Shown here in pieces: positions 282 through 29,385 of a stretch of DNA of 64,000 nt. The position numbers and the translations under genes are program-made. The notes below the pieces were generated by a model. The model saw only the letters and a program-made list of their open reading frames with translations. It made no database searches and was not told the DNA's origin. Source of the DNA: an uncultured Lachnospiraceae bacterium (GTDB taxonomy: Bacteria; Bacillota; Clostridia; Lachnospirales; Lachnospiraceae); NCBI GenBank assembly GCA_902789555.1, contig CADAOF010000009.1:1-64000 (forward strand). The letters are read 5' to 3'. Positions within the stretch are counted from its first letter, which is position 1; each line of letters begins with the position of its first letter.

Positions 282-845
282 ATGACCGGAAAACGCTTGT
301 GGCAGACGCTTCGCCTCTGGTCGATGAAGAGCAGCGTGAAGCGCGTAAACTATCTGCGCCGGAAACATATCTTCGGAGAGATCGGGGAAAACGTTACCAT
401 CATGGACCGGAGGATCCCGCTGTATGCGCGTCTCATCCGGATCCACAATAACGTGCGCCTGGCGTCGAATGTTACCTTTGCCACGCATGATATCACGCAT
501 TTTGTCCTGAGGAAACTCCCTGGGGGAGACAGAAAGGATGCGCTTGAGACGATCGGCTGCATCGAACTGATGGACAATGTTTTCGTCGGGACCAATTCGA
601 CCATCGTGGGCGGCGTCAGGATCGGCCCGAACGCAGTGGTCGCGGCAGGCGCCGTGGTCACGAAGGATGTTCCGGCAGGGACCGTCGTCGGCGGCGTTCC
701 GGCCAGGTACATCTGCAGCTATGACGAATGGCTGGAAAGAAGAGAAGACCGGTATCCGCCTGAGCTTGCACCGAAGCATCAGGAGGTTTCGGACGAACTC
801 GTGAAATACATGTGGGAGCAGTTCGAAAACAGCCGCAGGAAATAA
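282..845 (+). CDS. Hexapeptide-repeat acyltransferase
   Basis: A left-handed beta-helix O- or N-acyltransferase of 187 residues, in the range of the maltose/CysE-like acetyltransferases that decorate surface sugars. Isoleucine/valine-led hexapeptide repeats run from about residue 35 and are clearest near 105-145 ([20 protein letters not shown], then the closing GGVPAR). The ATHDI sequence carries the likely catalytic histidine. It is the first gene after the promoter at 138-166, with AAGGAG upstream of the ATG. Position at the head of an ATP-grasp and sugar-transferase operon suggests it acylates a nucleotide sugar or lipid-linked sugar; the acceptor is not known. Confidence 0.85.
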
Positions 846-870
846 ACATGCGGTGAAGGGAAAAACTTGA

Positions 871-2055
871 ATGACAACGAATTATGATGTTTTGCTGGAG
901 AAAGTCCGCGCGCTGGGGATGGATTACCGCTGGTCGCGCATGTTCGTGAAAAAACTGCGCGACGATGAGATCGCTTTTCCCGTTGCCGATGAAGAAAAGA
1001 AGAAATGGGCAATGGAGAAAGGGTTCTTCCCGGGACGGATCGAACTGTACGGCCTGACTGAGGATAACTGGCGGGATTATGTCCCGGATTATCCTTACTT
1101 CATGCTGCATCCCCTGAACAACCATTTCCTGAAATGGCTGGATAAGACTACGCTGAAATATGTTCTGAACAGCGGCGGCTGCGAAGAAACGATGCCGGAA
1201 TACTACGTCTACGTGGAGAACGAACTCTGTGGCGGCGGTTTTACCTATCTGATGGACTGCCCGCAGGACATCCCGAAAGACAAGGATTTCCTTTGGAATC
1301 TGCTGCAGCAGAAAAAGATCCTGGCCATGAAACCGAATTCCGGTACGTCCGGAGGCCTCGGGTTCATCAAACTGGAACTCAGGGACGGCAACCTTTACGA
1401 GAACAACAAGCCGATCGGTACGGAACGCTTTGACGAGATCCAGGATATGATGCGAAATTACATCATCACGGAATACGCCAGGCAGCATCATGACCTCGCG
1501 AAGATCTGGCCGGACAGCGAATGCACGCTCCGCGTCATCATGTGCAAGGTCCCTTCGCAGGACCGTTATGCACCGGCGGAGTTTGCCGACGTGATCTCCT
1601 TTGCAAGATTCGGCGCGGCGATCTCGGGCGGGACCAGCAACCTGTCTGCCGGCGGCGTCGGCATCGGTTTTGACTTTGAAACAGGCAAATACGCACCCGT
1701 CGGTGTCCGTTACCGCCGTTTCTGTGAAGACGGCAACTGGCGGATCGACCGGCATCCGGATACCGGCATTCCGTGGAAAGACGGGCAGCTTCCGAACTGG
1801 CCTTATGTCAGGAAAATGATCCTGAAGATGTGCACCCATATGTCTTCCCTGGATTACATGGGCTTCGACATCATCATAACCGAAGAGGGAATGAAACTCT
1901 GCGAGATCAATTCCCATGCCGCGCTGGACTATTCCCAGGTCCTGTCAGGCGCTGCCCTGAAAAAACCGAAGGTCAAGGCTTTCTTTGAGAAAAAAGGTCT
2001 TTTTGCCGTCGACACGAAAGCCTTCTATGAAGCGTACGCAAGCAGCAGGGAATAA
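871..2055 (+). CDS. Sugar-transfer-associated ATP-grasp protein
   Basis: A 394-residue ATP-grasp ligase of the kind found in cell-surface polysaccharide loci (Pfam ATPgrasp_ST type). The phosphate-binding region is KPNSGTSGGLGF around residues 154-165, followed by a TLRV strand, an NLSAGGVGIGFD stretch and a C-terminal metal site MGFDII...CEINSHAALDYS (Asp, Glu, Asn). Such enzymes activate a carboxylate with ATP and join it to an amine or other nucleophile. No substrate is known. It is the first of six ATP-grasp genes in the operon and the most divergent of its subtype, with a longer N-terminus of about 150 residues before the nucleotide-binding core. Confidence 0.8.
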   Translation: MTTNYDVLLEKVRALGMDYRWSRMFVKKLRDDEIAFPVADEEKKKWAMEKGFFPGRIELYGLTEDNWRDYVPDYPYFMLHPLNNHFLKWLDKTTLKYVLNSGGCEETMPEYYVYVENELCGGGFTYLMDCPQDIPKDKDFLWNLLQQKKILAMKPNSGTSGGLGFIKLELRDGNLYENNKPIGTERFDEIQDMMRNYIITEYARQHHDLAKIWPDSECTLRVIMCKVPSQDRYAPAEFADVISFARFGAAISGGTSNLSAGGVGIGFDFETGKYAPVGVRYRRFCEDGNWRIDRHPDTGIPWKDGQLPNWPYVRKMILKMCTHMSSLDYMGFDIIITEEGMKLCEINSHAALDYSQVLSGAALKKPKVKAFFEKKGLFAVDTKAFYEAYASSRE

Positions 2056-2081
2056 GGAACACCGCAGAAGGAGAAAAAGGA

Positions 2082-2831
2082 ATGGCTGAAGCAAAGGTGC
2101 AGCAGGAGATCCGGACGGATATCCCTCACCCTAAAAATACCATATATACGCGCTGCATCAAGAGAGTGCTTGATGTCGTGCTCAGCGGTACGGCAATCGT
2201 CGTTCTGAGCCCCGTGCTGCTCGTTTTGATGCTGCTTGAACTGATCATTCACGGAAGACCGATCTTTTACATGGATAAACGTCCCGGAAAAGACGGCAGG
2301 ATCTTTGAGATGTACAAGTTCCGCTCCATGCTCAACGAGACCGAAAGAGACGGAAAGCATCTGACGCCGGCGGAAAGGATCACACCGTTCGGGCGCTTCC
2401 TGCGGAGGACCTCTCTGGATGAACTGCCGGGGCTGTTCAACGTGTTCAACGGAACGATGTCCGTGATCGGACCGCGTCCGCTGATGGTGGATTATCTTCC
2501 GCTGTACAATGAGCGGCATAAGTACCGGCATAGTGTCCGCCCGGGTCTTGCCTGCTGGAGGATCGGCGGAACGGATCAGCTGGATTCCTCGACCTGGACC
2601 TGGAACGATCAGTTTGAAAGCGACATCTACTATGTCGAACATGTCAGCTTCTGGCTGGATGTCAAAATGGTCCTGAAGACCTTTAAGATACTCTTTTCGC
2701 GAAGCGAAATGCGGACCAATTCAAACAGGGTCAAGTTTGACGGAAAGAACCTTCTGGAAACGCGGACGAAGAAGCAGATCCTGGCGGATGAAGCCGCAAA
2801 GGCCGCGGAACAGATGAAAACAGATAATTGA
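2082..2831 (+). CDS. Initiating sugar transferase (polyprenyl-phosphate sugar-phosphotransferase)
   Basis: A 249-residue bacterial sugar transferase that moves a sugar-1-phosphate from a UDP-sugar to undecaprenyl phosphate, the first step of lipid-linked polymer assembly. One hydrophobic helix (about residues 27-50, VLDVVLSGTAIVVLSPVLLV) anchors it. The family's core follows: KFRSM, RRTSLDELPGLFNVFNG, and IGPRPLMVDYLP. The C-terminal 40 residues are charged and lysine-rich. It is one of two such enzymes in the window (the other at 15580), which implies two separately initiated glycolipids. No glycosyltransferase to extend this one is present before 14 kb. Confidence 0.9.
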   Translation: MAEAKVQQEIRTDIPHPKNTIYTRCIKRVLDVVLSGTAIVVLSPVLLVLMLLELIIHGRPIFYMDKRPGKDGRIFEMYKFRSMLNETERDGKHLTPAERITPFGRFLRRTSLDELPGLFNVFNGTMSVIGPRPLMVDYLPLYNERHKYRHSVRPGLACWRIGGTDQLDSSTWTWNDQFESDIYYVEHVSFWLDVKMVLKTFKILFSRSEMRTNSNRVKFDGKNLLETRTKKQILADEAAKAAEQMKTDN

Positions 2832-2849
2832 TGAATACGGAGAGATATT

Positions 2850-4076
2850 TTGAAAGCTTTGGTAGTTGCGGGCGGGATCCCGCAGATCGAACTGATCAGG
2901 CAGCTGAAAGAAAGAGGAATCGAGACGGTGCTTGTGGACGGAAACGCTGCAGCAGTCGCGAGGCCCTTCGCTGATAAATTTTATCGAGTGGATATTTTTG
3001 ACATTCCGGCCGTGAAGATCATTGCGGAAAAGGAACAGGTCGACTTCATTCTGACCGTCTGCGCGGACCAGGTACTGCTGGTCGTGGCACAGGCCTCGGA
3101 AGAGCTGGGGCTGCCCTGCTATATCGACTATGAGACCGCACAGGCCGTGTCGGACAAGATCAAGATGAAGACTTTGTTCAAGCAGATCGGTGTCCCTACC
3201 ACGGATTATATTACGACGGACTACCTCGATGAGGAAGCCGTTTCCCGTCTGCGTTTTCCTCTGGTCGTCAAGCCAATCGATGCTTACAGTTCGAAAGGGG
3301 TACGCAAGGCGGCCAACATAAATGAGCTGCGGCGCTTTTATACGGAGGCGCGCGAGATCAGCCGCAGCGGCGGCGTGATCATCGAAGAGTATTTCCAGGG
3401 CGAGGAGATCAGCGTGGACGCGTTCGTGACCGGCGGAAAGGCGAAGATCCTGACGGTGACGAACAGCGAGAAGGTCAGGAATAAGGACCGTTTCGTGATC
3501 TTCCGCGGACGATATCCGGCCGCGGTCTCAGACACTGTATTGCAAAAGATCGAAGAAATTGCGCAGAAGATTGCGGAAGGATTCGGACTTTGGGAATCCC
3601 CGCTGCTGATCCAGCTGCTCCATGATGGCGATAAGGTTTCCGTTCTGGAATTCTGCGCGAGGACAGGCGGCGGCATGAAATGGCTCATGATAAAGCATGC
3701 CTGCGGTGTGGATGTCATTAAGGCGACGATCGACATCACCCTCGGCCTCACGCCCGATCTGAAACGGAGGGATACCGGCAACAAGATCGTGGTCAATGAT
3801 TTCATCTACTGCCGTCCCGGCATCTTCGATCACCTGGAAGGCTTTGAGGAAATGCATGAGCAGGGGCTGATCAATGAATACCGCCTGATCCGGACAAAGG
3901 GCACCGTCATGCGGGGCGTGACCAGCAGCAGCGACCGCATCGCCGGCATGAACATCGTGGCCGACAGCATTGAGGAATTTAACGAGAAAGAAAAGAAGAT
4001 TCTTGAAACGATCAAGGTGGTCGACGCGGACGGAAAGAACATCATGAGGAAAGATCTCCTTCCGCCGCTCAGATAA
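2850..4076 (+). CDS. Carbamoyl-phosphate-synthase-type ATP-grasp ligase
   Basis: A 408-residue ATP-grasp enzyme with an N-terminal Rossmann-like pre-domain (residues 1-100, opening MKALVVAGGIPQIELI) and an ATP-grasp core: FPLVVKPIDAYSSKGVRKA around 135-153, IIEEYFQGEEISVDAFV, and the metal-binding VSVLEFCARTGGG. It resembles CarB-like or D-Ala-D-Lac-type ligases used for amide or dipeptide bonds more than the ATPgrasp_ST proteins around it. The start is a TTG, supported by GGAGA seven bases upstream and by the Rossmann strand that begins at residue 2. Its partner substrates are unknown; context suggests joining an amino acid to a surface sugar. Confidence 0.8.
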   Translation: MKALVVAGGIPQIELIRQLKERGIETVLVDGNAAAVARPFADKFYRVDIFDIPAVKIIAEKEQVDFILTVCADQVLLVVAQASEELGLPCYIDYETAQAVSDKIKMKTLFKQIGVPTTDYITTDYLDEEAVSRLRFPLVVKPIDAYSSKGVRKAANINELRRFYTEAREISRSGGVIIEEYFQGEEISVDAFVTGGKAKILTVTNSEKVRNKDRFVIFRGRYPAAVSDTVLQKIEEIAQKIAEGFGLWESPLLIQLLHDGDKVSVLEFCARTGGGMKWLMIKHACGVDVIKATIDITLGLTPDLKRRDTGNKIVVNDFIYCRPGIFDHLEGFEEMHEQGLINEYRLIRTKGTVMRGVTSSSDRIAGMNIVADSIEEFNEKEKKILETIKVVDADGKNIMRKDLLPPLR

Positions 4077-4130
4077 GGAAGGCATAAGGCTGCCGGTCTC
4101 ATAAAAATTAAATCAGCAGAGGAAAGCACG

Positions 4131-5222
4131 ATGCTTTACAGATTATTATCCCATAACCGTCTGGACAGAATGTACGTTTTCGCCAGGACGATCCGTCTTT
4201 CGAGGAAGAAAAAGAAATATGCCCGGAAACGCGTGAAAATGATCGGCGGCGGTTATCGGGGAACGAACAGAGAATACCGGGAGGTCGTCTGCCGCTATTG
4301 GAAGCCGTACGGCATAAAACCGCGGAAATTCTGGTATGACCTGTACTGCAGCGGGCAGGATGCCTACGATCCGAGATACATTCCCGATTCCGTGTGGTAC
4401 CGGAAGATCCTTCCGTATTTCAACAATCTCCTGCTGCGGCAGGCTTACGTCGACAAAGGCATGTACAACCGCCTGGTGACAGGGGTCAGAAAGCCTGAAA
4501 CGATCGTTAAGAGAATCGGCGGCTACTATTACGACGGAGACGGCGAGACAGCGATCACGCGGACTGAAGCAGAAGCGCTCTGCGCAAAGGAAGAGCACCT
4601 GATCTTCAAGCCGTCTACCTATACGGGCGGCGGCGCCGGCCTTGTCTTCTTTGACAGGGAAGACCATGCACAGTCCGTGAAGGACATTTTTGACGGTTAT
4701 GTTTCCGGATTCGTGGCACAGAGGATCGTCAGGCAGCATCCTGACCTGGCCCGGATCAATAAGGGATCCCTGAACACGGTGCGTGTCGTTTCCTTCCGCT
4801 TCAACGAAGAGGTACATATCCTTTCGACGATCCTCCGGATGGGCGGCGTCGGTGCCCGCGTGGACAACATCTCCGCCGGCGGGATCTCCTGCCGGATAAA
4901 GCCGGACGGCTGGCTTGTGGAGAAAGCCGTCACGAGAAAATCCGTCTGGACGGATGAGCACCCGAGCGGCCTGAAATTTAAAGATATCAAGGTTCCCTGC
5001 TTTGAAAAGATCATAGAGACCGTGAAACGGCTTCACCTTACGCTTCCGTATTTCGATCTGATCGGCTGGGACTTTGCCGTCGATGAAGACGGTGAGCCGG
5101 TCTTCATTGAATTCAACGTGATGCCCGAACAGAACCAGATCAGCTGCGGTCCGTCTTTCGGAGAACTGACGGATGAGGTGCTGGCAGCCGTATTCGGCGG
5201 AAAACTTCCGGAACGGTTCTGA
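4131..5222 (+). CDS. ATPgrasp_ST protein, tandem copy 1 of pair A
   Basis: A 363-residue sugar-transfer-associated ATP-grasp protein. Visible motifs are LIFKPSTYTGGGAGLVFF (nucleotide loop), SLNTVRVVSF, the NISAGGISCRI block, and IGWDFAVDEDGEPVFIEFNV with the Asp/Glu/Asn metal ligands near the C-terminus. It aligns end to end with the next gene (shared stretches such as HILSTILRMGGVGARVDN), so the two arose by tandem duplication. Role inferred: ATP-dependent ligation in surface-polymer synthesis. The divergence between the copies is enough for different substrates. Confidence 0.8.
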   Translation: MLYRLLSHNRLDRMYVFARTIRLSRKKKKYARKRVKMIGGGYRGTNREYREVVCRYWKPYGIKPRKFWYDLYCSGQDAYDPRYIPDSVWYRKILPYFNNLLLRQAYVDKGMYNRLVTGVRKPETIVKRIGGYYYDGDGETAITRTEAEALCAKEEHLIFKPSTYTGGGAGLVFFDREDHAQSVKDIFDGYVSGFVAQRIVRQHPDLARINKGSLNTVRVVSFRFNEEVHILSTILRMGGVGARVDNISAGGISCRIKPDGWLVEKAVTRKSVWTDEHPSGLKFKDIKVPCFEKIIETVKRLHLTLPYFDLIGWDFAVDEDGEPVFIEFNVMPEQNQISCGPSFGELTDEVLAAVFGGKLPERF

Positions 5223-5272
5223 CGGCAGAAAATGCCGCAGACCGTTCATCAGAAAAGCAAAAGAGGTGACAT

Positions 5273-6382
5273 ATGGGTCTGATCCCTTTGCACAAACCTT
5301 CCCGCAGGAAGATGGAACAGCTGTATATCAAGGCCAGAATGCATTCTCTGTCGAATGATCAGACGAAGAATGTAAAACCGCTGCTGAAGAGCATCGGCAA
5401 CGGTTATGACGGAAGTGTTTCCGAGTTTAAAAAGACGGTGCTTCCGTATTGGGAGCCGTTCGGCCGCAAGCCGGAGAAATATTGGTTTGACCTCTTCTGC
5501 AGGGAACTGGACCATTATGAACCGAGATACATTCCGGATACGGTCTGGTATAACGACATCCTGCCTTACTTCAACTACATCGCGATCAACAAGGCATACC
5601 GGGACAAGGGTATGTACAGCCGAATCCTTGCCGACGTCAAAAAGCCCGAGACCGTAGCCAAGAACATTGCCGGCTATTATTTCAACGGCGACGGAGACCG
5701 GCCGATCTCGCTTGAGGAGGCAATAGGCATCTGTGAGAAGGAGGAGCATCTGATCATCAAGCCGTCCGTCAACAGCGGCAGCGGCAGATCGATCACCTTC
5801 TTTGACCGGGACGACCCGAAGACGGAGAAAATAGCGGATATCTTCAGCAGGTTCAAGTACAACTTTGTCGTGCAGAGACTGGTGAAGCAGCATCCCGAGC
5901 TGGCGGCGATCAATGAACGGTCGCTGAACACGATCCGCGTCGTATCCTTCTATTTCAAGGGGGAAGTCCACATCCTGTCGACGATCCTCCGGATGGGCGG
6001 CGTCGGCGCCCGCGTGGATAATTTCTCGGCCGGCGGGATCTCCTGCCGGATCATGCCGGACGGCCGGCTGGATGAGAAGGCGATCAAAGGCGACCTGAGC
6101 TGGACGGATGAGCATCCGAGCGGCATCAAATTCAGGGACATCTCAGTTCCTTCTTTTGACAAGGTCATTGATACGGTAAAACGCCTTCATCCCACTCTGC
6201 CTTATTTTGCAATCATCGGCTGGGACTATGCCGTGGATGACTGCGGGGACCCGGTTTTCATTGAATTCAATATCATGCCTGAACCGAACCAGTTCAGCTG
6301 CGGAACGACCTTCGGTGAACTGACGGACGACGTGCTGAAGGACGTATTCATCGATAAGACCAGAAAGAACGCGTTTTATTGA
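5273..6382 (+). CDS. ATPgrasp_ST protein, tandem copy 2 of pair A
   Basis: A 369-residue paralogue of the preceding gene with the same order of motifs: LIIKPSVNSGSGRSITFF, SLNTIRVVSF, NFSAGGISCRI, and IGWDYAVDDCGDPVFIEFNI. Most differences lie in the first 70 residues and around the nucleotide loop, where the two copies read GGGAG and GSGRS. The ATG is preceded by AGAGGTGAC. The gap to the next gene is only 26 bases, so it is co-transcribed with the dehydrogenase-like gene. Specific substrate unknown. Confidence 0.8.
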   Translation: MGLIPLHKPSRRKMEQLYIKARMHSLSNDQTKNVKPLLKSIGNGYDGSVSEFKKTVLPYWEPFGRKPEKYWFDLFCRELDHYEPRYIPDTVWYNDILPYFNYIAINKAYRDKGMYSRILADVKKPETVAKNIAGYYFNGDGDRPISLEEAIGICEKEEHLIIKPSVNSGSGRSITFFDRDDPKTEKIADIFSRFKYNFVVQRLVKQHPELAAINERSLNTIRVVSFYFKGEVHILSTILRMGGVGARVDNFSAGGISCRIMPDGRLDEKAIKGDLSWTDEHPSGIKFRDISVPSFDKVIDTVKRLHPTLPYFAIIGWDYAVDDCGDPVFIEFNIMPEPNQFSCGTTFGELTDDVLKDVFIDKTRKNAFY

Positions 6383-6408
6383 GACCCTCGTGCAGAAAGG
6401 AGCACCCC

Positions 6409-7497
6409 ATGAAAATAGCAATACTCGGTGCCGGAAATGCCGGCTGTGCGGTTGCTGCCGACCTGACCATGCACGGACATGATGTGACCCTGATCAAGAC
6501 GTCGCATGCGATGCATGATGATAACTTTCAGTTTCTTCTTGAAAACGAAGGGAAAATGACCCTGAATGAATTCGGCGAGATCAAATCGGCCAATATCCAC
6601 AGGCTGAGCCGTGACGTCTCGGAGATCCGCGGCGCGGAGATCGTGATCATTTACATTCAGACGAATTACCATGAACAGCTGATCGAGCGCATTGCGCCGT
6701 TCCTGGAGGACGGCCAGATCCTTCTGATCAATCCGGGGTATCTCTCCACGGCGTATGTTCTGAAGCACTGCGGGAGTAAGGATATCATCATCGCCGAGGC
6801 GGAGAGTTCCTTCATCGACGGGCGGATCATGGAACCCGGATATTTCCGGGTCGGTTTCCGCAACGTCAGGAATCCGATCGGCATTTTCCCGTCTTCCCGG
6901 AAGCAGGAGGCTGCCGCGAAGCTGGATCAGCTGGGCGAGCGCCTCGTATATCTTGACTCAGTCATCGAAGCGGCGCTTCACAACCCCAATATGGTCGTGC
7001 ATACGGTCGGTTCGGTCATGAGCATACCGCGGATCGAATCTTCCAAAGGCGAGTTCTGCCTGTACTATGAAGCTTATACCCGAAATAACCCGCATACCTG
7101 GATGGTGCTGGACGCGCTGGATAAGGAAAAGATGGACGTTCTGGGAAAACTGAACTTTGCCAGAATGCCTTACGTGGAAGCGTGCAAATACCGCAATTCG
7201 CTCGACGATACCATGGATGCCAAAGAGGTGTTCCTAAATTATGCCGAGATGCCGACGCGCGCGAAAGGCCCCACGAAGGTCGATTCCCGCTACATTTCCG
7301 AAGACGTCCCTCAGGGCCTCGTCATGCTGGAAGCTCTCGGGAAGGCCCTGGACATCGCCACCCCGATTTGTACGGCCCTCATTGAGATCGCCTCTGCCGC
7401 GTTGGGGAGAGACCTGCGCGCGGAAGGCCGCACGCCCGAAAAACTCGGACGGGAAAATATCCACAGGATCCTCAGAGACTGCGGCAAGGAGAACTGA
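6409..7497 (+). CDS. Opine/octopine dehydrogenase-family oxidoreductase
   Basis: A 362-residue NAD(P)-dependent enzyme of the octopine/nopaline dehydrogenase family. The N-terminal Rossmann domain has the dinucleotide fingerprint ILGAGNAGCAVAADLTMHG (residues 4-22). The C-terminal catalytic domain has HNPNMVVHTVG and RYISEDVPQGL, the positions where the family keeps its catalytic His and helical core. Known members reductively join an amino acid to a 2-oxo acid. The ATG at 6409 was chosen over the in-frame one 30 bases upstream because it has AAAGGAG at the right distance and starts at the Rossmann strand. Beside six ATP-grasp ligases, an N-(carboxyalkyl)amino acid substituent on the polymer is a reasonable inference. 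Confidence 0.8.
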   Translation: MKIAILGAGNAGCAVAADLTMHGHDVTLIKTSHAMHDDNFQFLLENEGKMTLNEFGEIKSANIHRLSRDVSEIRGAEIVIIYIQTNYHEQLIERIAPFLEDGQILLINPGYLSTAYVLKHCGSKDIIIAEAESSFIDGRIMEPGYFRVGFRNVRNPIGIFPSSRKQEAAAKLDQLGERLVYLDSVIEAALHNPNMVVHTVGSVMSIPRIESSKGEFCLYYEAYTRNNPHTWMVLDALDKEKMDVLGKLNFARMPYVEACKYRNSLDDTMDAKEVFLNYAEMPTRAKGPTKVDSRYISEDVPQGLVMLEALGKALDIATPICTALIEIASAALGRDLRAEGRTPEKLGRENIHRILRDCGKEN

Positions 7498-7575
7498 ACA
7501 CCGGAATAATCGGCGTCCGAACCGGATGACCGGCAAGGACGTACCTGATCTTACGTCATACTGCAGAGAGCCGTA

Positions 7576-9153
7576 ATGGGAAAAGAATCCAGAGTAAGAA
7601 ATACGATGCTAACCATGATGACCAGCTTCGGCAATGAGATGCTGGTCGTCATTCTTAAGTTTGTCACGAGGACGGTCTTCATTCGGACACTCGGCAAAGC
7701 TTATCTCGGGATCAACGGCTTATTTGCGGACGTCATTTCGATGCTGTCGCTGGCGGAACTCGGCGTGGATACGGCGATCACCTACCAGCTGTACAAACCG
7801 TTGGCGGAGCATGACGACAAGAGAGTCCGCGTGCTGCTGAAGTTTTATAAACAGGCCTATCGCGTGATCGGTACAGTGATCCTGCTGATGGGGCTGGCCA
7901 TGATCCCCCTTCTGCCGATCCTGATCCGTGATTACGAGACACTGGCGGACCTCAATATCAACGCCGTCCTTGTCTTCATGATGTTTTTGCTGCAGAGCGT
8001 GTCGAGCTACTGGTTCTTTGCCTACCGCAGCACGATCATGATCGCCAATCAGAGAAAGTATGTCCTGGACATCGCGGGCTACATCATCGCGGTCATAAGC
8101 AATGTCGCCCAGATCCTCGTTCTGGTTTTTCTGAAGAACTTTATCGCCTATACGGCAACCGTCCTGAGCTTCTCGGTCATTGCCAACCTGGTCTATGCGC
8201 TGATCGCACAGCGATATTTTCCTCAGTTTTTTACCAAGGAAGAGGACAGACTCAAGAAAGAGGAGGTCTTCAGCCTCTTCAAGGACTGCGGTGCCGTTTT
8301 CCTGTATAATGTGAACGGTGTCGTTCTGAAGGCAACGGATAATATCGTTCTCAGTTCATTTCTGGGGCTGCCGATGGTCGGCCTGTATTCCAATTATCTG
8401 CTGTTCTACACGACGATCACGAAACTGCTCGGACAGGTCTACCGCTCAGTCAGGGCCAGTATGGGAAATCTGTTCGTTGAAGCCGATATTGACAGAAAAT
8501 TTCGGATGTTCAAGGTGATGAATTTCCTCACGGTTGTCCTTTACGGGACGGCGGGGGTCGGCATCACGGTCTGCGCGGACGAACTGATCCGGGTATGGGT
8601 CTCGGACAGTTATGTCATCGCAGAGCCGTTTGCCCTGCTGATCGGTATCGAGATCTACCTGTGGGGGCTGGTCAACAACATCTATCAGATCCGCAACGTC
8701 AGCGGAACTTTCCGCAACATGTGGTACCGGCCGCTGTTCGGCGTCGTGATCAATATCGTCGTTTCGGTAGGCCTCGTGCAGGTCTGCGGGATCTACGGCG
8801 TGATCATCGGAACGCTTTCAACGCTGCTCCTGACAAATATCGCCATGGACGTGCATGTCGTTTACAGATACAGCTTCGAAGGATATAAACCGGAGATCGA
8901 TTATTATCTGAGGAACGGGCTGTATCTGCTGGTGACGGCGGGCGTGTGCCTGGCGGACCGCTGGATCTGCAGTCATGTCTGTGTCGGCCGCGGCTGGCTT
9001 TCCGTGATCGTACATATCGTGATCGTCAGCATTTCGGTTCCGGCAGTTTTCCTCCTTCTCTTCTGGAAAACGGAATCCTGCAGATATCTTGTCGGACTGG
9101 CCAAGGGGATCCTTGGCAAACTGAAGAATAAATTCCGCAGAAAAAAAGGCTGA
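7576..9153 (+). CDS. Lipid-linked polysaccharide flippase (Wzx/MVF-type)
   Basis: A 525-residue polytopic membrane protein of the oligosaccharide flippase group, about 12-14 membrane segments, with the N-terminal pattern FVTRTVFIRTLGKAYLGING and NIVLSSFLGLPMVGLYSNY mid-protein typical of the family. It would move the finished undecaprenyl-linked unit across the membrane. The C-terminal tail is basic (KLKNKFRRKK) and cytoplasmic. A flippase in an operon that has an initiating transferase but no glycosyltransferase suggests the transported unit is a small sugar carrying ligase-added groups. A second flippase, at 20919, serves the other locus. Confidence 0.88.
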   Translation: MGKESRVRNTMLTMMTSFGNEMLVVILKFVTRTVFIRTLGKAYLGINGLFADVISMLSLAELGVDTAITYQLYKPLAEHDDKRVRVLLKFYKQAYRVIGTVILLMGLAMIPLLPILIRDYETLADLNINAVLVFMMFLLQSVSSYWFFAYRSTIMIANQRKYVLDIAGYIIAVISNVAQILVLVFLKNFIAYTATVLSFSVIANLVYALIAQRYFPQFFTKEEDRLKKEEVFSLFKDCGAVFLYNVNGVVLKATDNIVLSSFLGLPMVGLYSNYLLFYTTITKLLGQVYRSVRASMGNLFVEADIDRKFRMFKVMNFLTVVLYGTAGVGITVCADELIRVWVSDSYVIAEPFALLIGIEIYLWGLVNNIYQIRNVSGTFRNMWYRPLFGVVINIVVSVGLVQVCGIYGVIIGTLSTLLLTNIAMDVHVVYRYSFEGYKPEIDYYLRNGLYLLVTAGVCLADRWICSHVCVGRGWLSVIVHIVIVSISVPAVFLLLFWKTESCRYLVGLAKGILGKLKNKFRRKKG

Positions 9154-9211
9154 GAACAGGCAGCGAAAACGGACCGTTCCGCCATGTTTGATAACGATCC
9201 GGGAGGACATC

Positions 9212-10213
9212 GTGAACATCAAAAGCAGGATCAAAGAATATTTCGAATCCTACGGCAGACACTATGACTGGCACAAAATGGGGACAGGGATCCCCGTGCT
9301 CGAAAAGCTGCGATGCTTTGAGTGCCGGCTCATTCACGGAGTCAATCCGGAGTATTATGTCGCCATGGAACTGTATAAAAAGCGCCATGCAGAGATCCGA
9401 AAGTACATGGGGACCGTGCAAAGCCGTAAGATCACCCGGAGAATGCTGAAAAATTCGGATTTGGAAGAACATCGCTCCGTCGGCAACAAGCTTTGCTTTG
9501 ATGAGTTTTACGGCGCGGCCGGATTCGTAAAGAGGGAGTTCCTGGGAACGGAGAAGGCGACCGGGGATGAGATCAGGGCATTTGTTGAAAAACACAGGGC
9601 GGTTTTTAAGAAACCGCTGTACCAAAGCGGCGGTTCAGGCATCGAACTGCTTCGCCGTGAGGACTTAAATGAAGAGGTGCTTGCGGAACTGAAGCGCCGT
9701 GCTTACGTGCTGGAGGAGAGGATCGTACAGCACCGTCAGCTGAGCGCGATCAGTCCGTCCTGCGTGAACAGCATCCGCGTCGTGACGATCCTGGACAGGA
9801 ACCGCACGCCGCAGATCGTCGGTGCCGCCCTTCGCTGCGGCGCGGCCGGAAGCATCGTGGACAACGTGCATTCCGGGGGGATCGCTTATCCGATCGATCT
9901 GAAAACGGGCAGGATCATGTGTCCGGGAAGAGACAATGAGACTGAGAGATCCTTTGACACCCATCCTGTTTCGAACACTTACATGATCGGTCTGCAGCTG
10001 CCGAACTGGGATATTCTGCTGCGGGAAGTCTGCGAAGCGGCAAAACTCTCCAAAAATATGATCTATCTCGGCTGGGACATGGCCATTACGGAAGACGGCG
10101 TCGATTTCATCGAGGCAAATTTCGGACACGGTATTGATGTGATCCAGTACGACAACGTCGGTAAAAAAGAAATCATGAGAAAATACCTGGAAGGAACCCC
10201 TTGCGCTTTCTGA
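9212..10213 (+). CDS. ATPgrasp_ST protein, tandem copy 1 of pair B
   Basis: A 333-residue ATP-grasp protein: FKKPLYQSGGSGIELL (nucleotide loop), CVNSIRVVTIL, a GSIVDNVHSGGIAYPIDL block, and LGWDMAITEDGVDFIEANFG with the acidic metal ligands. The GTG at 9212 was chosen over a TTG 24 bases upstream: GGGAGG stands 5 bases before it, and the paralogue downstream starts with GTG at the matching residue and has the same length. It lies closer to the ATP-grasp enzymes of surface loci than to amino-acid ligases of primary metabolism. Substrate unknown. Confidence 0.8.
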   Translation: MNIKSRIKEYFESYGRHYDWHKMGTGIPVLEKLRCFECRLIHGVNPEYYVAMELYKKRHAEIRKYMGTVQSRKITRRMLKNSDLEEHRSVGNKLCFDEFYGAAGFVKREFLGTEKATGDEIRAFVEKHRAVFKKPLYQSGGSGIELLRREDLNEEVLAELKRRAYVLEERIVQHRQLSAISPSCVNSIRVVTILDRNRTPQIVGAALRCGAAGSIVDNVHSGGIAYPIDLKTGRIMCPGRDNETERSFDTHPVSNTYMIGLQLPNWDILLREVCEAAKLSKNMIYLGWDMAITEDGVDFIEANFGHGIDVIQYDNVGKKEIMRKYLEGTPCAF

Positions 10214-10299
10214 CCGGGAACGGTCGGGAAGGAAGGCAGTGACCCGTTTGCCGGAGTATTGCGGTTCGGCTCCGGCTGAAGAATGATTCGGAGGACAGC

Positions 10300-11301
10300 G
10301 TGAACATATTTGGCAGGCTCAGAGAATATTTGAAGTCCTACGGCAGAAACTACAACTGGAAAAACATGGGGACCGGGATCCCCGTGATTGAAAAGCTGAG
10401 ATGCTTTGAGTGCCGGCTCATTCACGGAATGAACATGGACAATTATGTTGCCATGGAACTGTACAAAAAACGGCACGCGGAGATCCGTACGTACATGGGC
10501 TTCATTCAAAGCCAGAAAATCACCGAAAAGATGCGGAAATCGTCGGAACTCGCCGAACGCCGTTCCATCGGCAACAAGCTTCTTTTTGATCAGACTTACG
10601 GCGCAGCCGGATTCGTGAAAAGGGAGTTCCTGGGAACTGAGACCGCATCCGGGGAAGAGATCAGAGCATTTGTTGAGAAACATGAGACGGTGTTTAAGAA
10701 ACCGCTGTACCAAAGCGGCGGTGCGGGCGTCGAACTGCTTCGCCGGGAGGACTTAAACGAAGAGGAACTCGCGGAGCTGAAGCGCCGTGCTTACGTGCTG
10801 GAGGAGAGGATCCGCCAGCACAGCGTGCTGAATGAGGTCAATCCGTCCTGTGTAAATACCGTGCGTATCGTGACGATCCTGGACAAAGACCGTAATACGC
10901 AGTTTGTCGGCGCCGCTCTGCGCTGCGGTGCGGCCGGCAGTATCGTGGACAACATGCATTTCGGCGGGATCGCCTATCCGATCGACCTGAAAACGGGAAG
11001 GATCTCAGGCCCGGGCAGAGACAATGAAACCGAAAAATCCCATGATACGCATCCGTCCTCGGGCATTTTCATGATCGGCCTGCAGCTGCCGCACTGGGAT
11101 GTGCTGCTGCAGGAAGTCGGTGAAGCAGCCAAACTTTCCAAAAACATGATCTATCTCGGCTGGGACATTGCCATAACGGAAGACGGTGTCGATTTCATTG
11201 AAGCGAATTTCGGACACGGCGTGGACGTGATCCAGTACGATAACGTCGGAAAGAAAGAGATAATGAGGGAGTATCTGAAAGGTACCTCCTGTGAGTTCTG
11301 A
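10300..11301 (+). CDS. ATPgrasp_ST protein, tandem copy 2 of pair B
   Basis: A 333-residue protein of the same length as its upstream neighbour and close to it along the whole chain (for example RCFECRLIHG, AGFVKREFLGTE, SKNMIYLGWD are the same in both). The duplication is therefore recent compared with pair A at 4131/5273. The start is GTG with GGAGG upstream, like its twin. Motifs: FKKPLYQSGGAGVELL, CVNTVRIVTIL, LGWDIAITEDGVDFIEANFG. It is the last gene of the first surface operon; no clear intrinsic terminator follows before the LysR promoter at 11321. Confidence 0.8.
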   Translation: MNIFGRLREYLKSYGRNYNWKNMGTGIPVIEKLRCFECRLIHGMNMDNYVAMELYKKRHAEIRTYMGFIQSQKITEKMRKSSELAERRSIGNKLLFDQTYGAAGFVKREFLGTETASGEEIRAFVEKHETVFKKPLYQSGGAGVELLRREDLNEEELAELKRRAYVLEERIRQHSVLNEVNPSCVNTVRIVTILDKDRNTQFVGAALRCGAAGSIVDNMHFGGIAYPIDLKTGRISGPGRDNETEKSHDTHPSSGIFMIGLQLPHWDVLLQEVGEAAKLSKNMIYLGWDIAITEDGVDFIEANFGHGVDVIQYDNVGKKEIMREYLKGTSCEF

Positions 11302-11392: not shown

Positions 11393-12298
11393 ATGAATAC
11401 CAAACAGTTTCAATACGTTCTGACACTTGCGCATGAAGGGTCGTTTTCCAAGGCGGCCGACCTGCTGAACATCACCCAGCCTTCGCTGTCGCAGTACGTC
11501 AAGAAGATCGAGAAGGAAATCGGTACTGAACTCTTTACCCGGACGAACGGTGATGTCAGAATTACGGATGCCGGAAGGATCTATATCGAAGCCGGCAGAC
11601 GGATCCTGGATATCGAACATCAGATGGAGAATGCGTTCAACGATATTGCAGAATGCAAGACGGGCTCTCTCATCATCGGAACATCGCCTTTCCGTTCCGC
11701 GTCCATGATGCCGGTGGTCGCCGGAAAGTTCAAGGAACTTCATCAGAACATGTATCTGGTGATCCGCGAGAAAACGACGGCTGAACTGCTGGACGGAATG
11801 GAAAAAGGGGAATTTGACCTGGCGATCACGATGCTGCCGGTTGACGGCAAGCGCTTCAGCCATGAAGAACTGCCGGAAGAAGAAATCATCCTTGCGGTCC
11901 CGGCAAAATGGGGAAAGTTCGATGCAGCGGAGTGCAGCGGCCGGAAATACCCGGCCGTGAGTACGGCGGTTCTCCGGGAACGACCGCTGGTGATGCTGAC
12001 GGAAACGCAGTACATGCAGAAACAGCTGGACGATCTGCTGTACGACGGTGAGAGCGGAGCGGTTCCCGCTGTCGTCGTAAAATCCCTGGAGGCACAGATC
12101 GAGATGGTCAAGGCCGGCGTGGGCATGGCCGTGGTGCCAAGCGGCATCGAGCGTTTCTGCCGGGACGGATCCGTCACCTTCTATTCTTTTTCCGACCGGC
12201 TGCTTAACCGGAAACCCGCCGTCATCTGGCGAAAAAGCGTTAAGCTGTCGGAAACGGCCCGGGAACTGATCTCGGTCATCAAAACCATTCAATGGTAA
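11393..12298 (+). CDS. LysR-family transcriptional regulator
   Basis: A 301-residue LysR regulator. The winged helix-turn-helix is at residues 1-60 (FSKAADLLNITQPSLSQYVK, then LFTRTNGDVRITDAGRIY); the effector-binding domain runs from about 90 to 295. The GTGAAGC context and the ATG at 11393 fit the usual length exactly. It lies 58 bases upstream of the TRAP-type permease on the same strand, so that transporter is the most likely target. The ligand cannot be predicted. Confidence 0.92.
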   Translation: MNTKQFQYVLTLAHEGSFSKAADLLNITQPSLSQYVKKIEKEIGTELFTRTNGDVRITDAGRIYIEAGRRILDIEHQMENAFNDIAECKTGSLIIGTSPFRSASMMPVVAGKFKELHQNMYLVIREKTTAELLDGMEKGEFDLAITMLPVDGKRFSHEELPEEEIILAVPAKWGKFDAAECSGRKYPAVSTAVLRERPLVMLTETQYMQKQLDDLLYDGESGAVPAVVVKSLEAQIEMVKAGVGMAVVPSGIERFCRDGSVTFYSFSDRLLNRKPAVIWRKSVKLSETARELISVIKTIQW

Positions 12299-14269: not shown

Positions 14270-15577
14270 ATGGATCGCAGAAACATCAGCTTCAGTCCGC
14301 CGGATATTTCAGAATTGGAAATAGAGGAAGTCGTACAAACTCTCAAAAGCGGATGGATCACGACCGGCCCCAGAACTAAACTTCTGGAGAGAAGGCTGGC
14401 AGCATATATTGAAACGGGAAGAACCGATATCGATACCGAAAAAGAAACAGCCCGGTGGAGCAATCGGGTGGTTTGCCTTAGCTCAGCGACTGCCGCGGAA
14501 GAGATGAATCTGCGGATCCTCGGCATAGGACCGGGGGACGAAGTCATCGTTCCTGCCTATACTTACTCGGCAAGCGCCTCTTCGGTCATTCATTGCGGGG
14601 CAACCGTTGTTTTCGTTGACATACAAAAAGACGGTGATCCGGTAACCGGCATGCCTGAGATGGACTATGATGCTTTGGAAGCGGCGATTACCGGGAAGAC
14701 TAAAGCAATCGTTCCGGTGGATCTGGGCGGACTTGTCTGCGATTATGACCGGATCTTTGAAATCGTGGAGAGAAAGAAAGATCTGTTCTCGCCTCTTCAG
14801 TCAGACGGTTCCATCCTGGGAGATCTATCTTCAAGGATCCAAAAAGCTATCGGGCGTGTTGCCGTAATGGCAGACTGCGCGCATTCCCTGGGCGGATCGC
14901 GCGTGTTCCGCGGAGAAAAGAAATACTGCGGAGCGATTGCGGATTTCACTTCATTCTCCTTCCATGCCGTGAAGAACTTTACGACGGCAGAAGGCGGCGC
15001 AAGCACCTGGCTGCCGCTCGAAGGGATTGACAATGCTGAAATCTATAAAATGTTCCAGCTGCTGTCACTGCACGGTCAGAATAAAGACGCACTGGCCAAG
15101 ACTCAGATCGGCACATGGGAATATGATATTATCGGTCCCTGGTATAAGTGCAACATGACGGATATCATGGCGGCGATCGGGCTGCGGCAGTTGGACAGGT
15201 ACCTCGGTCTTCTGGAACGCAGAAAAGCAATCATCAAACGCTACGATGCGGTTTGCGACAGTCTCGGCATCAGGCATCTGATCCATCATACTGCCGATAT
15301 GGACAGTTCAAATCATCTGTATCTCATTCGTGTTCCGGGAATGACAGCAGAAAAGCGCAATGAGTTCATCGTAAAAATGGCGGAAAAGGGCGTAGCAACG
15401 AACGTTCATTTCAAACCTCTGCCTCTGATGACAGCCTACGGCGCTGACTGTTCTGCGTACCCGAACGCATACGACTATTACCATAATCTGATCACACTGC
15501 CTCTTCATACGCTGCTCAGTGATGAAGACGTGGAATATGTCTGTGAGTCACTGAAAAAAACGCTTAAGGAGATCTGA
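14270..15577 (+). CDS. DegT/DnrJ/EryC1-family sugar aminotransferase
   Basis: A 435-residue PLP enzyme that aminates a nucleotide-linked keto sugar. Motifs include SGWITTGPRTKLLE near the N-terminus (cofactor contact), PAYTYSASASSVIHCGA, DCAHSLGG with the PLP-nitrogen Asp, and FHAVKNFTTAEGG with the Schiff-base lysine. Compared with the usual 370-390 residues it has a longer middle section (around 165-200, charged). It is the first gene of the second polysaccharide locus, with AAAGGAG upstream, so the polymer probably contains an amino sugar made from a UDP- or dTDP-4-keto sugar. The matching dehydratase is not in the window. Confidence 0.88.
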   Translation: MDRRNISFSPPDISELEIEEVVQTLKSGWITTGPRTKLLERRLAAYIETGRTDIDTEKETARWSNRVVCLSSATAAEEMNLRILGIGPGDEVIVPAYTYSASASSVIHCGATVVFVDIQKDGDPVTGMPEMDYDALEAAITGKTKAIVPVDLGGLVCDYDRIFEIVERKKDLFSPLQSDGSILGDLSSRIQKAIGRVAVMADCAHSLGGSRVFRGEKKYCGAIADFTSFSFHAVKNFTTAEGGASTWLPLEGIDNAEIYKMFQLLSLHGQNKDALAKTQIGTWEYDIIGPWYKCNMTDIMAAIGLRQLDRYLGLLERRKAIIKRYDAVCDSLGIRHLIHHTADMDSSNHLYLIRVPGMTAEKRNEFIVKMAEKGVATNVHFKPLPLMTAYGADCSAYPNAYDYYHNLITLPLHTLLSDEDVEYVCESLKKTLKEI

Positions 15578-15579
15578 AA

Positions 15580-16275
15580 ATGCTGAAAAGATGGGAAGAC
15601 CTCCCGGATTTCATGCGCATAGACGAGGTCAGACCGTATTGGCAGATTCTGGAACGTAAAAAAGGCCAGATTCTGCTGAAACGTGTCTTTGATTTTGTTC
15701 TGGCGCTGATTCTGGGAATGATTTTGTGTCTTCCCATGTTTATTATTGCCATTTTGATCAAACTTGACAGCAAAGGACCGGTTTTCTACCGACAGGAGCG
15801 GGTCACGACGTATGGCAGGCATTTTCGGATCCATAAGTTCCGTACCATGGTAACGAATGCCGACCAGATCGGCACGGCAGTCACGGTCCAGGGTGACAGC
15901 CGGATCACGAAAATAGGGGCTGTCTTAAGAAGGTTTCGTCTGGACGAGTTTCCTCAGCTGATAGACGTTTTGACCGGAGACATGTCATTTGTGGGAACCC
16001 GGCCGGAAGCGGTGAAATATGTTGAGCAGTATAAGCCGGAATATTATGCGACGCTGCTCATGCCGGCGGGAATAACAAGTGAGGCAAGCATCCGGTATAA
16101 GGATGAAAACAGATTGCTTTCGGCAGCGGACAATGTGGACGAAGTTTATATGACACAGGTCCTTCCGGCAAAGATGCAATGGAACTTGGAGAGTATTGAG
16201 AGATTCCGGTTTCTTCGGGAGATCCTGACAATGTTCAGGACGGTGCTGGCTGTACTGGGGAAGGAATACGGTTAG
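15580..16275 (+). CDS. Initiating sugar transferase
   Basis: A 231-residue polyprenyl-phosphate sugar-1-phosphate transferase: one membrane helix (about residues 28-50, FDFVLALILGMILCLPMFII), then KFRTMVTNADQIG, RRFRLDEFPQLIDVLTGDMS, and GTRPEAVKYVEQY. It begins 2 bases after the aminotransferase stop, so the two are translated together; the aminotransferase product is a plausible substrate, as in bacillosamine-type pathways. It is not a close copy of the enzyme at 2082. Confidence 0.92.
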   Translation: MLKRWEDLPDFMRIDEVRPYWQILERKKGQILLKRVFDFVLALILGMILCLPMFIIAILIKLDSKGPVFYRQERVTTYGRHFRIHKFRTMVTNADQIGTAVTVQGDSRITKIGAVLRRFRLDEFPQLIDVLTGDMSFVGTRPEAVKYVEQYKPEYYATLLMPAGITSEASIRYKDENRLLSAADNVDEVYMTQVLPAKMQWNLESIERFRFLREILTMFRTVLAVLGKEYG

Positions 16276-16292
16276 AGCTGAAGGGGACAGTA

Positions 16293-17111
16293 ATGGCAGA
16301 ATTAAGCGTACTTATGTCGCTGTATATAAAGGAAAAGCCCGAGTACGCACGTGCGTGCTTCGAAAGTCTGCTCAGACAGACCGTTCAAGCGGATGAATGG
16401 GTGGTGGTTGAGGATGGTCCTCTTTCCGATACCATGTATGCTCTGTTAGAGGAGTACCAGAAAGCGCATCCCGGACTGATAAAAAGGGTGCCTCTTGAAA
16501 AGAACCAAGGTCTTGGTACTGCGTTAAGCGTTGGAGTCCCTGAATGCCGGAATGATCTTATCGCACGTATGGATACCGATGATATTGCAAGGGAAGACCG
16601 CTTTGAGGTCCAGCTTGCAGAATTTAAAAAGGATCCGGAACTGGATATATGCGGGTCTCAAATCGACGAATTTGAGGATACCCCGGATATCATCGTTGCA
16701 CACAGGTCCGTCCCGACGGAACACAGCGAAATCATAGAATATCAGAAAAAAAGAGACGCTTTCAACCACATGACCGTCATGTATAAGAAGAAAGCCGTTC
16801 TCGACGCCGGGAATTATCAGCCCTGTCCGCTGATGGAGGATACCTATTTATGGGCAAGGATGATTATGAAAGGTGCAAAATGTAAGAATGTTGATGAGGG
16901 ACTGGTCTATGCGCGCATAGGACGTGACATGTTCGAAAGGCGCGGAGGCTGGTCCTATTACAAGAAATACAAAAGCGGACGGAAAAAACTTCTGGAATCA
17001 GGTTTTATCTCAAATTCGGACTATCTGTACACACTTGCGGTACAATTTGTAGTTGCGCTTATCCCCGGAAAGCTTAGAGGATTTGTTTTTAAAAAGATCC
17101 TGCATAAATAA
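16293..17111 (+). CDS. Glycosyltransferase family 2
   Basis: A 272-residue GT-A inverting glycosyltransferase. It starts [20 protein letters not shown], with [13 protein letters not shown], the nucleotide-sugar-binding DxD region [14 protein letters not shown] at about residues 90-103, and the acidic [13 protein letters not shown] further on. This resembles the amylovoran/AmsE-like GT2 group. It would add the second sugar to the lipid-linked unit in the cytoplasm. It ends with a hydrophobic, basic tail ([20 protein letters not shown]) that may touch the membrane. Confidence 0.88.
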
Positions 17112-17137
17112 GTTCCACTATTGCAAAGGATGCTGAA

Positions 17138-18214
17138 ATGATCATATTGCACATCGCATCGATACGAAACAATCCATTCAACGGCGTATGTGTTGTTGTG
17201 CCTGAGTATATCAAAGAACAGAAAAAACTCGGCCATAGGGTTGCTTTGTTGAATATTTCGGGTGAAGAGGTCGACGGAGTTGAGCTTCTGCAAACCGAAA
17301 ATTTAAGATTGGATCAGCTGCCGGTACCTTTTAACAGGCCTGATATTGTGATTTTTCAGGAATGCTACCGCGTAGAGTACCTGAAGATCTGGCCTCAGCT
17401 GAAGAAGAGGGGCATTCCTTATATCATTATCCCGCACGGGGAACTGGGAAAGGAAGCTCAGCAGAAGAAGCACCTGAAAAAAGTCGCCGCGAACCTGTTG
17501 TTCTTTAACAGGTTCACAGCCAATGCCGCGGCTGTCCAGTGCCTTTCGCAGCGAGAATACGACAACACATTTTTCGGGAGAAAAAAAATACTTGCCACCA
17601 ATGGCATAAACATTCCCGATGCCGTTGCGCATGTAAACGGCAGACAAAACGTAAACATGACCTATATCGGCAGACTCGATGCATATCATAAAGGCCTGGA
17701 CCTGCTCATTTCGGCAGTCAGGGAGATAAAACCGGTACTCATAGAGAGTGACGTGCGTCTCAGCATTTACGGTCCGGATTACGCAGGAAGGTTCGCCCAC
17801 CTGGAGAATCTCATAGCAGAGGCGGAGGTCGGGGATGTCGTCCTTCTTAATCATGAGGTCAGCGGAAAGGAAAAGGAAGATATCCTGATGAACACGGATG
17901 TGTTTATCCAGACGTCAAGGTTCGAAGGGATGCCCCTGGGCATTCTGGAAGCCATGAGTCTAAGCATCCCTTGCATAGTTACGGAAGGAACGACGCTTGC
18001 GGGAAAGATAAGCACTGCAAAAGCTGGATGGAACGCCGGAACCAGCGCTGCGTCAATCGCGGAGGCAATAAAGACCTGTCTTTCACAGAGAAATATGTGG
18101 CCCGAAATCGGTAAAAAAGGGCTGGATTTGGTTAAATCTGAGTATTCCTGGAACAGGATAATGATGGATACTGTTAAGCAATACGAAGAGATTCTTGAAT
18201 CTGTGAAAAGCTGA
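17138..18214 (+). CDS. Glycosyltransferase family 4
   Basis: A 358-residue GT-B retaining glycosyltransferase. The C-terminal half has the family's nucleotide-sugar signature, [16 protein letters not shown] and [20 protein letters not shown] (the E-x7-E motif). The N-terminal acceptor domain begins [20 protein letters not shown]. The ATG has AAAGGA upstream. It sits between a GT2 and an acetyltransferase, and probably adds one sugar of the repeat unit. Base use becomes more AT-rich from here onward. Confidence 0.88.
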
Positions 18215-18229
18215 AGGACAAGAAAGAAG

Positions 18230-19911: not shown

Positions 19912-19938
19912 GGAAGTCTAAAAAAGACGGTAACGGAG

Positions 19939-20913: not shown

Positions 20914-20918
20914 GTTTT

Positions 20919-22331: not shown

Positions 22332-22332
22332 A

Positions 22333-23037: not shown

Positions 23038-23062
23038 TTATTCAATAGAACAGGAACGAACG

Positions 23063-23878: not shown

Positions 23879-23934
23879 AGCAGCAATTGATTGTTTTTCC
23901 AGAACAATCTATTTCATCACAAAGGAGAACGAAA

Positions 23935-25743: not shown

Positions 25744-25769
25744 GATTTACTGAAGACAGAGGAAAGCGT

Positions 25770-26849: not shown

Positions 26850-26869
26850 TATGCGTCGCGGGGGACAAT

Positions 26870-27778: not shown

Positions 27779-27797
27779 AGAAGGAGTGTGATGCGCG

Positions 27798-29369: not shown

Positions 29370-29385
29370 CAGGAGAGAAGCAAGC

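Follow-up and report, generated by a model that had tools for sequence, protein, structure and literature searches.

The DNA analysed here, 64,000 nucleotides from an uncultured Lachnospiraceae bacterium (the window), comprises bases 1-64000 of the 77,284-base contig C9 in a genome of 2.26 Mb (G000). Between 282 and 11301 it carries an operon of ten genes on the + strand, in the order HexAT, AGa, PGT, AGb, AGc, AGd, ODH, Flip, AGe and AGf, which combines a phosphosugar transferase (PGT) and a flippase with six ATP-grasp ligases and an opine-type dehydrogenase (ODH). Since the intergenic gaps range from -4 to 86 bp, there is no space for an extra gene inside the run. Pfam matches (E <= 0.01) and gene spacing agree with a first-pass annotation of this DNA, which had noted one sugar transferase, one flippase, six ATP-grasp genes, an opine-dehydrogenase-like gene and an acyltransferase lying in the same direction with short gaps. 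The nearest named relative by ODH, uncultured Lachnospiraceae bacterium RUG10682 (locus L040), has a protein 99% identical, and ODH at least 77% identical is present in four of 15 other genomes of the same genus. The ten genes are as follows.

282-845, + strand: HexAT, hexapeptide acyltransferase (PF00132, E 8e-10), first gene of the run in L040 too
871-2055, + strand: AGa, divergent ATPgrasp_ST ligase (E 8e-26), catalytic columns kept
2082-2831, + strand: PGT, PglC-like phosphosugar transferase (undecaprenyl phosphate; PF02397, E 2e-54)
2850-4076, + strand: AGb, ATP-grasp_4 ligase (Pfam, NCBIfam, solved relatives)
4131-5222, + strand: AGc, ATPgrasp_ST ligase (E 2e-33)
5273-6382, + strand: AGd, ATPgrasp_ST ligase overlapping ODH by 4 bp (Pfam, structure model)
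6379-7497, + strand: ODH, opine-type dehydrogenase (Octopine_DH, PF02317, 132 bits against a cut-off of 30)
7576-9153, + strand: Flip, Wzx-like flippase (Polysacc_synt, PF01943, E 3.5e-7, barely above cut-off)
9188-10213, + strand: AGe, ATPgrasp_ST ligase, tandem copy (Pfam, alignment)
10300-11301, + strand: AGf, ATPgrasp_ST ligase, tandem copy (Pfam, alignment; model pLDDT 80)

Five of these proteins score above the cut-off of the Pfam family ATPgrasp_ST (PF14397), with 91-144 bits against 31.4, and the sixth ligase, AGb, is of the ATP-grasp_4 type; the ATPgrasp_ST cut-off was reached in two of 14 control genomes. AGe and AGf, which are 78% identical and both correspond to a single gene in L040 and in the related loci L041 and L082, are a tandem duplicate, and AGc and AGd share 59% identity. 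Judged from their sequences, the six ATP-grasp genes represent four clearly different ligase types.

The first pass had seen no glycosyltransferase (GT) and no Wzy in the operon, and had suggested a product built without GTs or nonribosomal peptide synthetases (NRPS). Indeed, Pfam found no GT or Wzy family among the ten proteins, nor any NRPS adenylation, carrier or condensation domain. Among the NCBIfam matches listed, glycosyltransferase-named models match PGT only, and these are PGT-type models below their cut-offs; an NRPS_term_dom match of HexAT reached 36 bits against a cut-off of 423. Pfam likewise returned neither TupA nor the poly-gamma-glutamate capsule set of CapA (PGA_cap) and a PgsB-type synthetase among the ten genes. 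Genes for a PglF dehydratase and a PglE aminotransferase do not lie inside the operon, and a PF02719 enzyme of G000 sits on contig C4.

The individual enzymes retain recognizable features. The best solved relative of PGT is PglC (8g1n, E 1.9e-46), and its SLDELP stretch is kept. ODH is closest to CENDH (1bg6, E 1.6e-29), with His208 and Asp309 aligned to His202 and Asp297, which we take to be the catalytic His/Asp pair of that enzyme; its predicted activity is the reductive condensation of an amino acid with a keto acid. For AGb, the best solved relative is 4dim, named phosphoribosylglycinamide synthetase (E 8e-18), followed by the L-amino acid ligases 4wd3 and 3vot and by PylC (4ffl). The structure predicted for AGd from 31 sequences (pLDDT 91) has an ATP-grasp fold with a helical N-terminal part. 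By E-value its best matches are acyl-CoA carboxylase chains; further matches, at a TM score of about 0.4, include D-Ala-D-Lac ligase, RimK, an L-amino-acid ligase and ArgX. Seven residues, K112, K163, R222, N250, D318, E331 and N333 in AGd numbering, are invariant in all 13 of the aligned ATP-grasp proteins (13/13) and are presumably catalytic.

The pairing of ODH with an ATP-grasp ligase is conserved. A scan with ODH as the query returned 45 loci, and in 36 of them an ATP-grasp gene lies directly upstream of ODH: one of the AGc/d kind in 30, TupA in three, and a large AGa-like protein in three. Three of the remaining loci start at or near a contig end, and six have no upstream ATP-grasp gene. 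Six of the 45 loci share with the window a 4-bp overlap of the two genes. In a tree of 51 ODH proteins the window falls in a supported set of 15, of which 11 come from PGT-labelled loci, and a separate set of 27 contains the stand-alone pairs.

Several arrangements around ODH are worth recording in their own right. In L051 (9011-12012), one of the six exceptions, ODH lies between BacA and an undecaprenyl-phosphate translocase-like gene with no adjoining ATP-grasp gene, and L059, judged by gene lengths, has the same layout. ODH-ATPgrasp-ODH groups outside recognised polysaccharide clusters are found in L055, L056, L057, L060, L076 and L078, the ATP-grasp gene of the group in L076 being read in two pieces. 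The AGa-like part in L046:7809-9983, L054:5789-8869 and L077:3540-6923 belongs to proteins of 724-1127 aa directly upstream of ODH, and a TupA-like gene comes after ODH in all three. G000 itself holds a second, 41% identical ODH relative with one in-frame TGA (contig C12:33074-34135), which was seen in genome G005 too. Ruminococcus turbiniformis also carries the ODH, on a short contig.

To count GTs around PGT genes we used 12 genomes of our own choosing, which are partly related, and excluded the window genome. Their 24 PF02397 matches gave 23 loci, one locus having two matches. A GT was a match to PF00535 (GT2) or PF00534 (GT4) within 12 kb; other GT families were covered where proteins were scanned. 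The count used 86 of 89 PF00535 rows (dropped were two rows under the cut-off and a further match to an already matched frame, none of them on the contig of a counted PGT), 48 of 50 PF00534 rows (two below cut-off dropped) and 40 of 41 PF14397 rows (one below cut-off dropped, at the L044 PGT locus). L044 was therefore grouped as without ATPgrasp_ST despite its ODH and its TupA- and AGb-like ligases; it has one GT4.

Among the ten PGT loci with two or more ATPgrasp_ST genes within 12 kb, six had neither GT family, three had one GT and one had two. Only one of the 13 PGT loci with no ATPgrasp_ST above cut-off was free of both families. Tests of the deficit gave Fisher p 0.019 and Mann-Whitney p 0.005, values that are optimistic since the genomes are related. 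The six loci free of both families are L040, L041, L083, L048, L049 and L070; the full 12 kb is present on the contig for L041, L048 and L049, and the scanned share of the proteins from the six clusters matched no other GT family. A PGT lies in or just beside 14 of the 45 ODH loci, and 11 of these, together with L073, entered the count.

A wider survey found ATPgrasp_ST in 45 of 391 genomes of the class at E <= 1e-8. More than three matches occurred in G000 only, so this survey yielded few extra clusters, and four stretches (L115-L118) were examined. L116 has no GT-like gene over 19 kb and no PGT either, with eight genes scanned. Its segment 2870-18711 holds two ATPgrasp_ST genes, an AGb-like ligase, two acyltransferases, an amino acid permease, a C-C bond lyase, MmgE/PrpD, a flippase and nucleotide-sugar genes. 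In L117 (285-5845), a 751-aa protein with two ATPgrasp_ST matches is flanked by genes for a MatE transporter and a GH3 family protein.

Because contig C9 ends at the left window edge, the left flank had to be inferred through relatives. From base 135 on, the window aligns collinearly with L040 (90% identity), which shows that the operon begins in this region. We set aside the idea that GT genes were lost at the contig edge, given this collinearity and the next long gene to the left in L040, which encodes an opposite-strand acyltransferase. The possibility of GTs left of the cluster in relatives, raised in the first pass, thus finds no support in L040. It does in L082, where a GT2 gene stands left of DegT, directly behind a gene with a Halogen_Hydrol match. 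To the left of the L041 operon lie LCP, dehydratase and DegT genes. The remaining features at the operon's ends are these.

53-94, no strand assigned: inverted repeat (18 nt) at the contig end, to the left of where homology to L040 begins
138-166, + strand: promoter-like site, possible operon promoter (TTGACA-17-TATAGT, 11/12)
11393-12298, + strand: LysR-type regulator, right neighbour in L040 and L082 as well

The inverted repeat is perhaps the end of a mobile element, and the LysR-type regulator is probably outside the pathway. Promoter-like sites are not above chance (eight in 14.3 kb against 9.9 expected in shuffles), so that the site at 138-166 is backed by its position and score only.

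To the right, the segment 14.03-32.71 kb has no DNA counterpart in L040, and its counterpart in L082 is a protein relative of the last gene (31230-32627) only. Since the segment is missing at the same place in both relatives, the GT-bearing pathway that it contains is a separate insertion; for the same reason we set aside the idea that the operon's ligases serve that pathway. At 14270-31143 the pathway comprises DegT, a PGT, two GT2, a GT4, Wzy (18724-19911), a flippase, two LicD-like genes, an NTP-transferase/aminotransferase fusion, an opine-DH-like gene, an amidohydrolase and an NTP-transferase/choline-kinase fusion. Its product looks like a phosphocholine-type or similarly decorated polymer. 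LCP genes are located elsewhere in G000.

Two genes of L082 are missing from the window operon: a Wzy-like one (weak PF04932 match, E 0.0048), which accounts for about 1.4 kb between PGT and AGb, and a TupA-type ATP-grasp, which accounts for about 1 kb between ODH and Flip. Neither genome G000 nor genome G145 yields a match to the L082 Wzy-like protein. Gene content of the other related operons was assigned by Pfam scans and partly by similarity. A PF02719 dehydratase and/or DegT occurs in the PGT gene run of six loci, both in L041, L042, L049 and L070, and DegT in L067 and L082 too (by Pfam for L041 and L082, by similarity for L042, L049, L067 and L070). A GNAT or hexapeptide acyltransferase recurs among the PGT loci. 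Further genes are PALP (L042, L049, L067), an ornithine-cyclodeaminase-like gene (L048), a PylC-like ATP-grasp (L042, L049), Beta_elim_lyase (L049), GNAT/FemAB-like genes (L083, L048), CapA (L042, L045, L048, L049, L067, L070, L083), LCP at the left side (L041, L049, L083), a TupA-type ATP-grasp (L041, L082) and a DUF1919 protein in the L048 cluster. PALP and ornithine-cyclodeaminase-like enzymes recall 2,3-diaminopropionate synthesis (SbnA/SbnB); the two were not found in one and the same locus among the PGT loci. Unannotated genes of relatives were considered as possible hidden GTs: two proteins with no Pfam match, in L083 (324 aa) and L070 (350 aa), resemble relatives of pyridoxal-phosphate aminotransferases, a judgement made by eye, and the DUF1919 protein may be a candidate. 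The lack of Wzy is a trait of the window operon that does not extend to all relatives: Wzy_C matches exceed the cut-off in L048, L049, L067 and L070, and there are weak ones in L082 and L044.

From the observed gene content and order, conservation, predicted fold and catalytic residues we infer substrates, bond types, step order and product as follows. The operon would make and then export an undecaprenyl-diphosphate-linked unit of one sugar to which ATP-grasp ligases couple amino acids and an opine, a proposal that we judge to have an even chance of being right. The PglC-like PGT would put a sugar phosphate on undecaprenyl phosphate. The sole sugar is probably a bacillosamine-like 6-deoxy amino sugar; in favour are PglC, nearest to PGT, and the dehydratase and/or DegT genes in the PGT runs of relatives. 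HexAT possibly N-acylates this primer sugar. The four ligase types, in six genes, would activate carboxylates with ATP and form amides to the sugar amine or the growing chain. ODH would make an opine building block from an amino acid and a 2-keto acid, to be ligated by its coupled partner AGd/AGc. For the proposal argue the ATP-grasp fold, the invariant catalytic columns, the His/Asp pair of ODH and the adjacency in 36 of 45 loci. Flip would export the lipid-linked sugar-pseudopeptide. Several relatives would polymerise such units with a Wzy-like enzyme and anchor them with an LCP enzyme. Having no polymerase of its own, the window variant may stop at a monomeric or short product, or it may rely on the Wzy encoded next to it. 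The overall logic would be that of lipid I, without MurG.

This proposal is in line with the lower number of GTs at ATPgrasp_ST-rich PGT loci and with the occurrence of the operon without the right-hand pathway. An amino-acid-containing polymer is suggested by the PylC-like, PALP, ornithine-cyclodeaminase-like, GNAT/FemAB-like, Beta_elim_lyase, CapA, TupA and LCP genes of relatives. There is chemical precedent for the proposed opine amide in O-antigens: that of Providencia alcalifaciens O35 carries alanopine in amide linkage to Qui4N, and that of P. rustigianii O14 has an N-(carboxyethyl)lysine amide (PMC10609480). The first-pass suggestion of a sugar extended by ligases thus gains from an operon that stands alone, from relatives of the same logic and from the ATP-grasp-ODH pair, and its peptide-like product stays a conjecture.

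Several observations weigh against ligase-only extension. GTs are not consistently missing in relatives, a point that the first pass had proposed to check: within 12 kb, L082, L067 and L042 have one each and L045 has two. L046 (weak, 13 bits), L050 and L081 carry GT-like genes as well, and leaving these three out of the count favoured our proposal; the window aside, a GT-free appearance is found in only six of the 14 ODH loci with a PGT. Four of the ten ATPgrasp_ST-rich PGT loci, those of L040, L083, L070 and L042, have a contig end closer than 12 kb, so that GTs could be missed there, and the sample itself, chosen by us and partly related, tells against the comparison. GT absence is a tendency, no rule. 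GTs encoded elsewhere could act in trans, and DegT and the dehydratase are outside the window operon. Stand-alone ATP-grasp-ODH pairs occur, so the pair does not depend on a lipid-carrier operon. With acyl-CoA carboxylases as top matches of the AGd model, the predicted fold by itself is no proof of amide ligation.

The strongest alternative is a surface polymer of the ordinary kind, a polysaccharide or one resembling teichoic acid, with its GTs encoded elsewhere; the ATP-grasp ligases and ODH would only decorate its sugars with amino acids and an opine. In L112, another point against our proposal, four GT-like genes share a cluster with ATP-grasps of the AGb, the AGa and other types, so that such ligases can act merely as decorators; L113 too combines AGa/AGb-type ligases with GT-like genes, and in L073 an ATP-grasp-ODH group stands beside LicD and GT-like genes. 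The GT-bearing pathway right of the operon fits this explanation, as do the amide-linked amino acids and opines known on O-antigens (PMC10609480). We nevertheless consider decoration doubtful. The window operon owns a PGT and a flippase, which normally travel with their GTs, and six PGT loci have neither PF00535 nor PF00534 within 12 kb.

Quite unlikely, in our estimate, is a non-polymeric lipid-linked glyco-amino acid, a lipid-I-like headgroup or signal that stays monomeric. The operon has no Wzy inside, and the alignment puts the gap for the Wzy-like gene of L082, unmatched in G000 and G145, between PGT and AGb; yet the close relatives L082 and L041 carry a Wzy-like gene in the same operon, and G000 has another Wzy to the right and LCP genes elsewhere. 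It is similarly improbable that ODH produces no free opine and instead uses a keto acid for reductive alkylation of the amine of an amino sugar bound to lipid or nucleotide, thereby forming the carboxylate for the ligases to extend: ODH does lie in a sugar operon and an opine-type dehydrogenase needs only an amine and a keto acid, but CENDH-type enzymes act on free amino acids and stand-alone ATP-grasp-ODH pairs have no recognised sugar genes adjoining, few of their other neighbours having been scanned.

If extension by ATP-grasp ligases is correct, surface assembly on a lipid carrier can be uncoupled from glycosyl transfer, repeat units might consist largely of peptide-like parts, and Clostridia may have opine-containing wall polymers. 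The tight pairing with an opine dehydrogenase would also give a concrete substrate context to ATPgrasp_ST, a family whose function, to our knowledge, is unproven. A broader claim, which we put forward tentatively and hold to be possible rather than likely, is that of a GT-free undecaprenyl-linked class of pathways in Clostridia. There, ATP-grasp ligases alone would lengthen a single primer sugar, using amino acids and opines, after which Wzx would flip the unit, Wzy polymerise it and LCP anchor the result, a pseudo-peptide wall polymer made without GTs, Mur ligases or NRPS.

Within the collection of papers searched, we found nothing on ATP-grasp with polysaccharide and opine dehydrogenase, on ATPgrasp_ST, or on octopine dehydrogenase in polysaccharide biosynthesis gene clusters, and the portion covered of the literature joining ATP-grasp and undecaprenyl does not describe this arrangement. 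ATPgrasp_ST/TupA operons were reportedly predicted by Iyer et al. in 2009 to make peptide-bearing capsular polymers and teichuronopeptides, so that the window operon is a variant of a known theme. Those operons are alike in ATP-grasp families, surface-polymer context and predicted amide ligation; the window operon, for its part, brings together six ligases and a coupled opine dehydrogenase and lacks a GT. Peptidoglycan lipid I synthesis, by MraY, Mur ligases and MurJ, shares one sugar on undecaprenyl phosphate, ATP-dependent ligases that build a chain and a flippase; the window operon has ATP-grasp instead of Mur ligases, PF02397 instead of MraY, and no MurG-type GT. With the Wzx/Wzy-dependent capsule pathway it has a PGT and flippase in common, and in some relatives Wzy and LCP, but GTs are absent or few and the window operon lacks Wzy. 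The bacillosamine (Pgl) primer pathway shares the PglC-like PGT. The teichuronopeptide of Bacillus halodurans (TupA) is an acidic polymer of amino acid and sugar acid (PMC8153356); TupA-type ATP-grasps are present in L041 and L082, and none is in the window operon. Finally, the opine-amidated O-antigens of P. alcalifaciens O35 and P. rustigianii O14 have in common with the proposed product an opine amide on a surface sugar (PMC10609480), and differ in that their opine is a side group of a multi-sugar repeat.

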